DNA of 64,000 nt from Methanobrevibacter sp. GTDB taxonomy: Archaea; Methanobacteriota; Methanobacteria; Methanobacteriales; Methanobacteriaceae. Under the pieces are notes generated by a model, which had not been told where the DNA came from, ran no database searches, and saw only the letters and a program-made list of their open reading frames with translations. Numbering within the stretch: position 1 is the first letter of the stretch; every line of letters starts with the position of its first letter. This document shows positions 2,718-6,756 of this stretch, in pieces. Where the stretch lies: contig NZ_JAFYHP010000024.1 in NCBI RefSeq assembly GCF_017539065.1, forward strand, positions 1-64,000, in the 5' to 3' direction. Position numbers and translations under genes: made by a program.

Positions 2718-2790
2718 ATTTAAAACACCACCACACTAAAAAAAAATATTAATAACTTAATTGATACACTTTAAATACAGAGGTGAAAAA

Positions 2791-3162
2791 ATGTTCATTA
2801 CCATTCTGGCCTTTAAGAACTTGCATGGTGAAAAACCACTCAAATTAGACGCAATAGTCAAATTAGTCAAAGAACCTGACAACAAATATGATACAGAAGC
2901 GATAGCCTGCGAAGTAAGATATTTCGGAAAAATCGGTTATGTTGCAAACAGTACAAATACCGTGATAAAAGGCTGCATGAGTTCAGGCCGTGTTTTCGAT
3001 AAAATTGATGACGAATACTTTGCTAAAGTTAAATTCATAACCGACAATAATGCAATAGCCAAAATATTGTCTGCAGATGAATTCATTGAAGAAATTGAAA
3101 ATCCGGAAAGTGATGTTCACTATTTAAGTGAAAATCCATCAAAATTGGAAGCACCACATTAA
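2791..3162 (+). CDS. HIRAN-domain protein
   Basis: The 123-residue protein consists almost wholly of a HIRAN-like module. Its pattern is LKLDAIVKLVKEPDNKYDTEAIACEV, then GKIGYVANST, the basic/aromatic beta-barrel seen at the N-terminus of HLTF/Rad5 helicases, where it recognises DNA 3' ends. Stand-alone HIRAN proteins occur in many prokaryotes with unknown roles. The ATG at 2791 is chosen over an upstream in-frame TTG because AGAGGTGA lies just ahead of it. The ARPP-1 gene begins 29 bases after the stop on the same strand. The domain call is by pattern and should be checked by a profile search. Confidence 0.75.
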   Translation: MFITILAFKNLHGEKPLKLDAIVKLVKEPDNKYDTEAIACEVRYFGKIGYVANSTNTVIKGCMSSGRVFDKIDDEYFAKVKFITDNNAIAKILSADEFIEEIENPESDVHYLSENPSKLEAPH

Positions 3163-3191: not shown

Positions 3192-4121
3192 ATGATGACC
3201 CTTGGCAAGGATATTGAACTTTTAAAACCGCAAGTGCACGAAAACCTCGCAATAATCCCCCTAAAAACTGAAAAATCATATATTGACATAATGACCCTTA
3301 AGAAAGGTTTTGAATTGGGATTAGCTGAAGTTAAAGAATGTGACAATTCACAGGTAAACACATTAATCGTCAAAAATATGGCAGTTACACCATTAATCTT
3401 AATTGATGGTGAAGAAGTAGTTGGAGGAGACCAGAACCGTATAGTGAATGCAACTATCCTGATTGATGCAAAAAGTGAGATGAAGATACCTGTAAGCTGT
3501 ACTGAAAAGGGAAGATGGGGTTTTAAAAGCGAATTCAAGCAGTCAAATTATATTGCAAACTATAACACCAGAAGAGCGAAGGAATACGCTTCAAGAAAGC
3601 ATCATCATTTTCAAGACGTAATTTGGTCATCAATCAATGATTTGGAAATTGAAAATTCATTCGCATCACCTACAAGCGCAATGGAAGAAAGCTATGAAAA
3701 TCTAAAGATTGACCACAACAAGATTATAAGCGAATTTGATATTGTTCCGGGCCAAAATGGCGTTTTGATTATTGTAGACGGTGAAATCAAAGGTTTTGAA
3801 TTATTCCTAAACTCTGAAATCTACAAAGAGTTTCATGAAAAGATACTTAAAAGCTATTTGATCGACTCAAAAATAGAAAACAAGACATTTACAATAAATG
3901 TTGATGCTGCACAACTGGTGATTAACAATGCTCTTGCTTCAACATTTGAGGAAAAACAGAATCACGGTGTTGAAGAAGCATTTGAATTTGAAAATGATGA
4001 GGGTCTTGGAACACTTTATACCTACAAGGACCAAATTATTCACTTATCCTACTTTAAAAAGTTAGAAGATATTATTGAGGATGGAGTCATTGAAGATATC
4101 TCTTTAAAAACGGATATCTAG
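3192..4121 (+). CDS. ARPP-1 domain (DUF6569-type) protein
   Basis: The 309-residue soluble protein matches the ARPP-1 family. Its hallmarks here are the N-terminal VHENLAIIPL, LILIDGEEVVGGDQNRI near residues 70-90, and IPVSCTEKGRW near residue 105. The biochemical function of the family is unknown; it is named for association with ADP-ribosylglycohydrolase and rhodanese/phosphatase genes. Two adjacent ATGs (3192, 3195) are possible starts and no strong ribosome site is seen. The 3' end overlaps the convergent hsdM-like gene by 18 bases. Co-transcription with the HIRAN gene is plausible. Confidence 0.75.
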   Translation: MMTLGKDIELLKPQVHENLAIIPLKTEKSYIDIMTLKKGFELGLAEVKECDNSQVNTLIVKNMAVTPLILIDGEEVVGGDQNRIVNATILIDAKSEMKIPVSCTEKGRWGFKSEFKQSNYIANYNTRRAKEYASRKHHHFQDVIWSSINDLEIENSFASPTSAMEESYENLKIDHNKIISEFDIVPGQNGVLIIVDGEIKGFELFLNSEIYKEFHEKILKSYLIDSKIENKTFTINVDAAQLVINNALASTFEEKQNHGVEEAFEFENDEGLGTLYTYKDQIIHLSYFKKLEDIIEDGVIEDISLKTDI

Positions 4122-5777
4122 TTCATCCATCATCTTTTCTATTTTTAAATTTAAATCCCTGATGTTGGAATCAATGTCCTGTTTTTCCATAACCAATTCA
4201 TCAAGGGAAATGAATTCCCCTTCAAATGTGTCCACATAACGGGAAACTGAAAGATTAAAATTGTTATTTTTTATTTCATCAATGGAAATTAAATTGGAGA
4301 ATTTAGGCAATGACAATCTCCTTACAAAAGCATTCTCCATCTTTTCAATGGTTGTATCATCTAAAATGAGATTTTTTCTAAATAATCCCGGATAAACAAT
4401 ATCGCTTCTTTTTGTTTCATAGTCTGAAGACATGTCAATGAACAGAATATCCTTATTTACCCTGTTTTTCCTGAATACGATTACGACTTCCGGCCTTGAA
4501 CGGTTGATCTCATTCGGAATCCTAATAATCGTATCAATGTAATTTTTCTTCAATGTCAAGTATTTCCTAAGAATTTCAAGTGAATTCTTGAATAGGAAAT
4601 TTTCAGAAATGCTTATAGCCATTATTCCATCATCTTTTAGGGAATCAATCAGATTGAGCAAAAATAAAAATTCACTATCCCTAAGAATTTCATATTGTCC
4701 TTCAAAATCTATATTTAACTCATTTTCAACATCGATTTTATTGACAAGATTTTCCAAAGCACTGTTTAATTCACTGTCTAATTTGAATGAATCCCCATCA
4801 ATGCCGAAGTTATTCAGCAAAAGATTTTCCAATTCGCTGCGTTTGCTTCTTTTTGACATTTCCCTGCTTTGGTTGATATTTGAAGAATAGTAATTCTTAA
4901 TGGCTATCGGAATTCTGGATAGAATAACATCAAAAGATGCTCCATTAATGTCGACTGAATCAAGAGCATCCTCCTGTTTTAAAAATACGTTTTTAAATGA
5001 AAAGTTATTTATGAAAAATCTGACAATCGTATAAAGATAATTCAGCCTACTTATATCCTTGCCGTAGCAATAGCTTAAACCGTATTCTATTTCTTTACGC
5101 AATTTCATGATGGAGCTTCCATCTTTCATAAATGGATCGTAAGCACTTTCAATAGTTTGTTTTTCACTTAAAACCAGTTTAGACAATATTTGTGTGATGA
5201 ATTCCGGATTGGAACTGACATGGGCCAATCTGGATGCAGAAATTATATCAAATACATCACTAAACTCCAAATCCAATTCAAAAACGTCCAATTGGGAAAT
5301 TAAATATATGATTTCGCAAACATTTTTGGTAACTTCCTCATCATATTCATAAGTATCGATTTCATTGTCGATGGTTTTGAACAAATCATCAAAATATTTT
5401 AGATTATGATATTCTGAGCTGAATATTGAGTATTCTGGAAATATTTTTAAGAAATCCGGCAGAAATCCTGGTTTTAGGTAATTATTGTTAACAACCTCAT
5501 CAATGAAAGCTTCAGATCTTTTAATATAAAATCCGTATAATTTCAATGCATCGAAGGACACCCTTTCCTGATAAGCAGGATTCCTATAGGATTCATCGAT
5601 GGTTAACTCCTTATCCTTTAATTCAAGCAAGAGGAAGTCTTTTATGTTATCTGAGCAATATTTATATAAAAAAGTGTAAAGAACTATGTAGTCCATTTCA
5701 TCAGGAAGCTTGACCCCTCTGGATTTGGACATCAGTTGTTTTAAAATGGTGTAATTTGTTGATTTTTTATCTTTCAT
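4104..5777 (-). CDS. HsdM-like N6-adenine methylase homologue with degenerate catalytic motif
   Basis: The 557-residue protein follows the type I modification subunit plan. A helical N-terminal third is followed by a Rossmann-like region with a motif I remnant (YDPFMKDGSSI, residues 213-223, where active enzymes have DPxCGSGG). A late strand DGIMAISISENFLF and a coiled C-terminus complete it. The catalytic NPPF/Y motif should lie near residue 287; the sequence there is VILSRIPIAIKNYY, with no NPP. Adenine methylation is therefore unlikely. The gene follows the HsdS-like gene with an ATGA overlap, the reverse of the usual M-then-S order. No hsdR is in the window. It may be a DNA- or partner-binding pseudo-methylase. 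Confidence 0.72.
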   Translation of the reverse strand: MKDKKSTNYTILKQLMSKSRGVKLPDEMDYIVLYTFLYKYCSDNIKDFLLLELKDKELTIDESYRNPAYQERVSFDALKLYGFYIKRSEAFIDEVVNNNYLKPGFLPDFLKIFPEYSIFSSEYHNLKYFDDLFKTIDNEIDTYEYDEEVTKNVCEIIYLISQLDVFELDLEFSDVFDIISASRLAHVSSNPEFITQILSKLVLSEKQTIESAYDPFMKDGSSIMKLRKEIEYGLSYCYGKDISRLNYLYTIVRFFINNFSFKNVFLKQEDALDSVDINGASFDVILSRIPIAIKNYYSSNINQSREMSKRSKRSELENLLLNNFGIDGDSFKLDSELNSALENLVNKIDVENELNIDFEGQYEILRDSEFLFLLNLIDSLKDDGIMAISISENFLFKNSLEILRKYLTLKKNYIDTIIRIPNEINRSRPEVVIVFRKNRVNKDILFIDMSSDYETKRSDIVYPGLFRKNLILDDTTIEKMENAFVRRLSLPKFSNLISIDEIKNNNFNLSVSRYVDTFEGEFISLDELVMEKQDIDSNIRDLNLKIEKMMDELDIRF

Positions 5778-6337
5778 GGATTATCTCCCCACAAATCATT
5801 TAGAATTGCTTCTTTGAGGTGTCTGTCATATTCGACCTGGCGTTGGTCTTCGAATATTTTATCATTGATCGTGTTTAAAAGTTCCCCATATTTTATCTGT
5901 GTTTCCAAATCCGGAAGGATGAGTTGAAGCTGTTTTATTTCCTTAAGAGATGTATGAGGCAGCTTTCCACTACCTCCGAGTTCATGCAGTTGCTTTTTAA
6001 TATGAGCATTTGTTAGCAGATGTGCAATGAATTCCGGATCAAATCCCTTTTTGAGTCTTATTATTGCAATCCTGTCACTTATTATCAAGTCTTCATCTTT
6101 AACGCAAACAACATCATAAGGATATGTCATTTTCATTAACACATCATTTTTTCGTGTATAATACCTGTCTTTAAAGGTGCCATTCAGTTTCACTTCTTCA
6201 AAATCGGATAATATTCCATCTTTTTTAATGGATCTTTGCACAATTACCTTGAATTTTTCCCCATCCTCATCTAAGTAACGCCTATATGAGAGTCCGGAAA
6301 TGATTTCTGCTATATCATTTAATATTATTTTTTGCAT
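5774..6337 (-). CDS. HsdS-like single target-recognition protein (half S subunit)
   Basis: Type I specificity subunits normally have two target-recognition domains and about 400 residues. This 187-residue protein has one, ending in the family pattern GGSGKLPHTSLKEIKQLQLILPDLETQ followed by a helical spacer (residues 125-180). The N-terminus ILNDIAEIISGLSYRR is also typical of a recognition domain. Half S subunits can dimerise. Its stop overlaps the hsdM-like start by 4 bases (ATGA), so the two proteins are made from one message and probably interact. A weak GGGAT precedes the ATG. Confidence 0.82.
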   Translation of the reverse strand: MQKIILNDIAEIISGLSYRRYLDEDGEKFKVIVQRSIKKDGILSDFEEVKLNGTFKDRYYTRKNDVLMKMTYPYDVVCVKDEDLIISDRIAIIRLKKGFDPEFIAHLLTNAHIKKQLHELGGSGKLPHTSLKEIKQLQLILPDLETQIKYGELLNTINDKIFEDQRQVEYDRHLKEAILNDLWGDNP

Positions 6338-6382
6338 TTTTATCCCTTTGAAGAAAGTTTTTGTGATGGTGGTTGAATGAGC

Positions 6383-6411
6383 ATTAGTTTTGGTGGTGAG
6401 CCAAAACTAAT
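6383..6411 (-). terminator. Hairpin after the 114-residue gene
   Basis: ATTAGTTTTGG pairs perfectly with CCAAAACTAAT over 11 bp around a 7-base loop, beginning at the base after the stop codon of the 6412-6756 gene. A terminator or an mRNA-stabilising stem between that gene and the hsdS-like gene is the simplest reading. No long T-run follows. Confidence 0.5.
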
Positions 6412-6756
6412 CTATTGGTAGAGGCCTCCTACATCATCGAGCAGTGGTGTTTCATCAGGGATTTCTGATGGGTCGATTTTTTCTGCGGAAACTCCGCCAA
6501 TTACTCCTACGCTTTGAATATTATCTTTCAAAACCGCAGTTGAGGTGATTCCAGGACCTTGCGGTGATAATACGAATAAATCAAGGAATACTTCATCTTC
6601 ACCAACAATGAATGCCGGTTCGATTGCCTCTGACGCTTTTGTTTGAACTTTGATTAAGATATGTTTGGCTTCGTTTTCGCCTTCAATACCAATCTCTTTC
6701 CTTATTGTTTCATCTAAATGTTTTACTTTTTCGCTCCAATTAATTTTTGAGTTCAT
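6412..6756 (-). CDS. Conserved-looking hypothetical protein, 114 aa
   Basis: I do not recognise this family. It is a soluble acidic protein with alternating beta-rich and acidic segments. Notable parts are AKHILIKVQTKASEAIEPAFIVGEDEVFLDLFVLSP in the middle (residues about 30-66) and a Pro/Asp/Glu-rich tail. There is no signal peptide, membrane segment or cysteine cluster. GAGGTAATGAT precedes the ATG, and a TATA box about 120 bases upstream together with an inverted repeat at 6830-6850 supports expression as a separately regulated gene. Confidence 0.7.
   Translation of the reverse strand: MNSKINWSEKVKHLDETIRKEIGIEGENEAKHILIKVQTKASEAIEPAFIVGEDEVFLDLFVLSPQGPGITSTAVLKDNIQSVGVIGGVSAEKIDPSEIPDETPLLDDVGGLYQ

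Follow-up and report, generated by a model that had tools for sequence, protein, structure and literature searches.

A conserved S-M gene pair of Methanobrevibacter related to type I methyltransferases and lacking their catalytic motif

Introduction

In type 1½ methyltransferases such as M.AhdI, M.BsaBI and M.PshAI, M and an S with a single target-recognition domain (TRD) are encoded by separate genes, a build associated with a predicted 2M+2S assembly and a palindromic bipartite target; M.AhdI has been described as 2M+2S (PMC3874165). The half-size S subunits of type IC systems likewise pair together and read interrupted palindromes (PMC3874165). An engineered M½S recognises ACCN5GGT, and a likeness between half-S dimers and the BmrR repressor has been pointed out (PMC6158711). 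The catalytic motif of gamma-class/type 1½ methyltransferases is NPP(Y/F/W) (PMC3874165), while NPPF/NPPY are given for the m6A and m4C subunits of type I systems (PMC9613975).

Here we describe a gene pair of Methanobrevibacter, S-M, which shares the separate M and single-TRD S of type 1½ systems and for whose predicted build the half-S homodimers of EcoR124I and EcoDXXI deletions and of NgoAV set a precedent (PMC3874165). It differs from type 1½ and half-S systems in having no catalytic NPP(F/Y) anywhere in the family, no cognate restriction gene and the gene order S-M.

Results

The window, a 64,000-nucleotide stretch of a Methanobrevibacter contig, was the subject of an earlier note that described a 187-residue single-domain S and a 557-residue HsdM-like M with reading frames overlapping as ATGA. 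Coordinates (Table 1) and Pfam matches agree with this description. S scores 41.7 bits against Methylase_S (cut-off 22) in a single stretch, and M scores 94 bits against N6_Mtase (cut-off 20.4), with its best N6_Mtase stretch covering profile positions 160-307 only, after motif IV. Among proteins of known structure, M is related to 3LKD and EcoR124I M (PDB 7BST), with homology spanning both of its halves, and S, more weakly, to T. tengcongensis HsdS. With S and M as separate genes, a single TRD in S and homology of both to type I S and M, the pair is, as judged from sequence, built like a type 1½ methyltransferase, yet does not carry the catalytic motif of that class. A low-confidence model of S places helices at residues 144-163 and 168-183. 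The stretch of M that follows motif IV is longer than its HsdM counterpart according to hhalign gaps and moderately conserved among M orthologues by entropy. The C-terminal signature of M contains RYVDTF, which is common to HsdM, and ranks among the best-conserved parts of the orthologues.

Table 1 Features of the S-M locus (positions in the window).
Feature	Positions	Strand	Basis
M, catalytically degenerate HsdM homologue, 557 aa	4104..5777	-	N6_Mtase match, alignments to HsdM
S, half-size HsdS homologue, 187 aa; one TRD and C-terminal helices	5774..6337	-	
C-terminal helices of S, aa 144-183, at the position of the HsdS helical pairing region	5789..5908	-	profile match to HsdS
Degenerate motif I of M, DPFMKDGSS, aa 214-222, at the SAM-binding position	5112..5138	-	alignment, orthologue variation
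Replaced catalytic motif IV of M, SRIP, aa 287-290; orthologue consensus S[RK][IL]P	4908..4919	-	
Region following motif IV in M, aa 297-365	4683..4889	-	hhalign gaps, entropy
C-terminal signature of M, NLSVSRYVDTFEGEF, aa 508-522	4212..4256	-	alignment, entropy
Inverted repeat in the S-M leader, TAGTTTTGG-N7-CCAAAACTA	6385..6409	-	conserved

Full-length M was found in 19 of 61 related genomes searched, all of them Methanobrevibacter, and strong S matches are confined to the same 19. S and M thus occur together in 19 of 37 Methanobrevibacter genomes and are missing from many others. Named matches in a public genome collection were all Methanobrevibacter as well. When 152 genomes of the phylum were searched with a profile, 40 full-length M orthologues scored 545-992 bits, all from Methanobrevibacter; ordinary HsdM proteins came next, at 143 bits or less. 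The M orthologues form one clade (support 100/100), and the stem between this clade and HsdM measures 2.2 changes per column.

In all 30 loci examined, S-M lies in the same gene block. On one side are HemC, a Gfo/Idh-type dehydrogenase, a gene resembling phosphoribosyltransferases and often HIRAN-like and ARPP-1 genes; in convergent orientation to these follow M, S, a 114-aa gene and one resembling MtrA. HemC, Gfo/Idh, GfcR and MtrA were named by reading the sequences, not by family searches. The order is broken only where a contig ends and, in one subclade, by an inserted gene of 130 aa. Pairwise, M and S distances follow those of the flanking housekeeping genes (Mantel r 0.79 for M and 0.73 for S, matched by 0 of 2000 permutations), with M evolving about 7 times as fast as these neighbours by distance slope. 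On these distances and gene orders, S-M is inherited vertically at one chromosomal place. Because two genomes (L047 and L048) carry the same block with S-M cleanly missing, the pair behaves as one dispensable unit. In the window, the ARPP-1 gene (PF20208; 3192-4121) converges on M with an 18-nt 3' overlap, and the HIRAN-like gene (2761-3162) lies next to it; the L048 homologue of the latter scores just below the PF08797 cut-off.

In every one of 253 pairs, S is the better conserved of the two proteins, with a median identity of 66% versus 45% for M. The active type I loci of Methanobrevibacter resemble S-M in placing a half-S directly before an EcoR124I-like HsdM, both subunits being detectably homologous to those of S-M, yet show the reverse: in the few active loci on which the contrast rests, M is 68-91% and half-S 24-36% identical, one close pair of half-S at 77% being the exception. 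The half-S of active loci therefore diverges faster than M, whereas in S-M it is S that forms the slower part. Of all the observations, this reversal hints most strongly at a complex retained for a single DNA sequence, although high conservation of S could instead reflect protein contacts.

Active loci run R, half-S, M (NPPF), full S (L049, L051, L050), and S-M has neither R, nor NPPF, nor a full S. This arrangement explains why S stands before M and suggests the ancestor of the pair. The S-then-M order to which the earlier note drew attention is therefore real but not peculiar to this locus. The half-S between hsdR and hsdM (L049 8721-9275; L051 1605-2159), which in L049 is additional to a full hsdS, is possibly an accessory specificity subunit.

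S-M might still have a defensive or antiviral function without catalysis, binding incoming DNA at its site and either blocking it or recruiting an unlinked effector. An origin in type I restriction, a patchy presence within Methanobrevibacter, a fast-evolving M and the frequent adjacency of ARPP-1 and HIRAN-like genes are all in keeping with such a system. However, these two neighbours are absent from many S-M loci, no close relative was found in the viral contigs, phages or plasmids searched, and both the vertical inheritance at one housekeeping locus and a recognition subunit that is frozen instead of diversifying make this role unlikely. The same two observations sit poorly with the decoy and defence functions that had been proposed from the window.

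Catalytic function of M was assessed by alignment. SRIP of M aligns with ANPPF of HsdM both by MAFFT and by profile-profile comparison (hhalign probability 100), and RIPIAIK of M stands opposite NPPYSVK of EcoR124I M. SRIP thus occupies the place of NPPY in a protein otherwise homologous to EcoR124I M and 3LKD across both halves, and motif I is altered as well, reading DPFMKDGSS where active HsdM proteins of Methanobrevibacter have DPTCGSGS. Both readings had been made from the window and are borne out here. Among 41 distinct M orthologues, the column of the catalytic Asn holds Lys (21), Arg (17), Glu (2) or His (1), and NPP(Y/F/W) occurs in none. The first Pro is replaced by Ile, Leu, Val or Phe, the second is kept in 40 of the 41, and D283, S287 and P290 are near-invariant; the replacement motif, FDxIxS[RK][IL]P, is better conserved than the remainder of M. 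Motif I retains Y[DN]PF with an altered glycine pattern; its loop varies, with an entropy (1.43) near the whole-protein average. Loss of the catalytic residues before the sampled Methanobrevibacter species diverged is well supported by this distribution, as is the suggestion that M has no working modification catalysis. Annotation as HsdM/HsdS at this locus need not mean DNA methylation.

It could be argued that the pair still catalyses a reaction, either methylation by an unconventional active site or some other conversion of DNA or RNA, with Lys/Arg taking over from the catalytic Asn. Conservation of the replaced motif (mean entropy 0.87 bits versus 1.55 for the whole protein) and of DPF in motif I is in line with this. 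We consider it improbable: catalysis in this class of enzymes is ascribed to NPP(Y/F/W) (PMC3874165), the Asn position here holds Lys, Arg, Glu or His, and the glycine pattern of motif I is lost and its loop variable.

The absence of hsdR noted for the window extends to the whole assembly (1.84 Mb, 93.7% complete), in which HSDR_N has no match; no hsdR is annotated among the neighbours in the 30 syntenic blocks either. The 187-aa S is the sole Methylase_S protein of the assembly, leaving no two-domain HsdS, and canonical HsdM was not detected in this genome. The only other N6_Mtase match belongs to an Eco57I-type protein of 1188 aa, a type IIG-like restriction-modification protein on another contig (L055 1462-5025). 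Membership of the MADS defence system was also considered and rejected: the mad2 and mad5 models match the pair less well than do those of type I M and S, and the scanned neighbours include no other recognisable mad gene. Modulation of a resident type I system through mixed complexes with active HsdM, HsdS or HsdR would be compatible with the half-S genes that precede M in active loci and with the HsdM match present in 5 of the 19 S-M genomes. The other 14, including that of the window, have no canonical HsdM match and the latter genome has no recognisable hsdR, and this explanation has little to recommend it.

None of 40 genomic M copies contains an internal stop. For near pairs, Nei-Gojobori counting puts dN/dS at about 0.04-0.10 in M and 0.03-0.14 in S. 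These ratios are rough, as most pairs approach saturation at synonymous sites; in the closest pair, dS values of 0.88 and 0.54 correspond to dN/dS of 0.065 and 0.077. Neither disrupted frames in the 40 copies nor relaxed selection in the near pairs was thus seen, and purifying selection on a pair that is not decaying is well supported. The earlier note had argued against simple decay and proposed comparison with other Methanobacteriales, naming intact NPPF in close relatives alongside decay in others as the contrary outcome. That outcome was sought and not found (41 of 41 without Asn, 0 of 40 with stops); the relatives instead combine S-M pairing and uninterrupted frames with a conserved, altered motif IV and low dN/dS. 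A decaying leftover of a restriction system, as the missing catalytic motif and R, the patchy distribution and the fast evolution of M might suggest, is very hard to reconcile with intact frames in every copy, dN/dS well under 1, continued pairing of S and M and conservation of the altered motif.

Discussion

We hypothesize that S-M is a maintained, non-catalytic remnant of a type 1½-like methyltransferase, domesticated once and binding one fixed site as a regulator or architectural factor, and assign this reading a probability of roughly 0.6. The methyltransferase in question would have been type IC-like (EcoR124I-like), with the build of type 1½ enzymes, and domesticated a single time, in an ancestor of part of Methanobrevibacter. 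By homology to half-S and type 1½ systems, the products should form a complex and bind without methylating: two half-S subunits would pair via their helices, each carrying one M, and the resulting 2M+2S complex would recognise one fixed, probably palindromic, interrupted DNA sequence. S-M would then most likely serve regulation or DNA architecture, binding specific sites and occupying or bending them. Such a role is the most economical reading and would fit better than a decoy or mobile defence. Weighing against it are the fast evolution of M, the dispensability of the pair and the lack of an operator-like site shared by all subclades. More tentatively, the methyltransferase may have been turned once into a non-enzymatic site-specific regulator or nucleoid protein of gut methanogens whose recognition sequence is constant across the genus.

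AlphaFold2 models built from 10-row alignments have mean pLDDT values of 52.6 for M and 60.1 for S, too weak for judging assembly or occlusion of the pocket. A fold search with the low-confidence S model, and hence of weak weight, pointed to Esub1 (PDB 8VSQ, 8VSR) and HsdS structures. Esub1 is a half-S-sized protein whose structure was solved with Prx; a full-text literature search returned no paper on it. METTL14-type pseudo-methyltransferases have kept a methyltransferase fold and lost catalysis, the protein being retained plausibly for nucleic-acid binding. METTL14, however, pairs with an active enzyme, and no active partner is visible for M, so the comparison is an analogy only. As a non-enzymatic regulator or nucleoid protein, S-M would be a naturally occurring "dead methylase", comparable with catalytically dead Cas9. 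No report of a catalytically dead HsdM-HsdS pair was found in the full-text literature searched, a body that excludes most subscription journals. If our reading is right, a defence enzyme can shed both restriction and modification and survive for sequence recognition alone, and S-M would be a site-specific DNA-binding complex of gut methanogens that is amenable to testing.

Between the 114-aa gene and S, the leader reads TAGTTTTGG-CTCACCA-CCAAAACTA followed by AATGCTCATTCAACCACCA (window 6367-6409, minus strand). The repeat arms covary between subclades (4 or 5 T/A), with a z-score of -2.6 as RNA, and neither of the two loci lacking S-M shows the repeat. Its reading as an operator of the S-M complex was not adopted: the spacer changes from 7 to 9 nt (L008), the repeat is absent from other subclades whose S stays conserved, and an RNA hairpin is equally possible. 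Rfam gave nothing above the gathering score in this region, and a search for an operator-like site shared by all subclades found none.

Two small genes accompany this part of the locus. The 114-aa gene (window 6412-6756) is present in all 19 S-M genomes and in only two others of the 61 searched. The extra gene of about 130 aa lies directly before S and is confined to one subclade (L089, L090, L091, L092, L093, L041).
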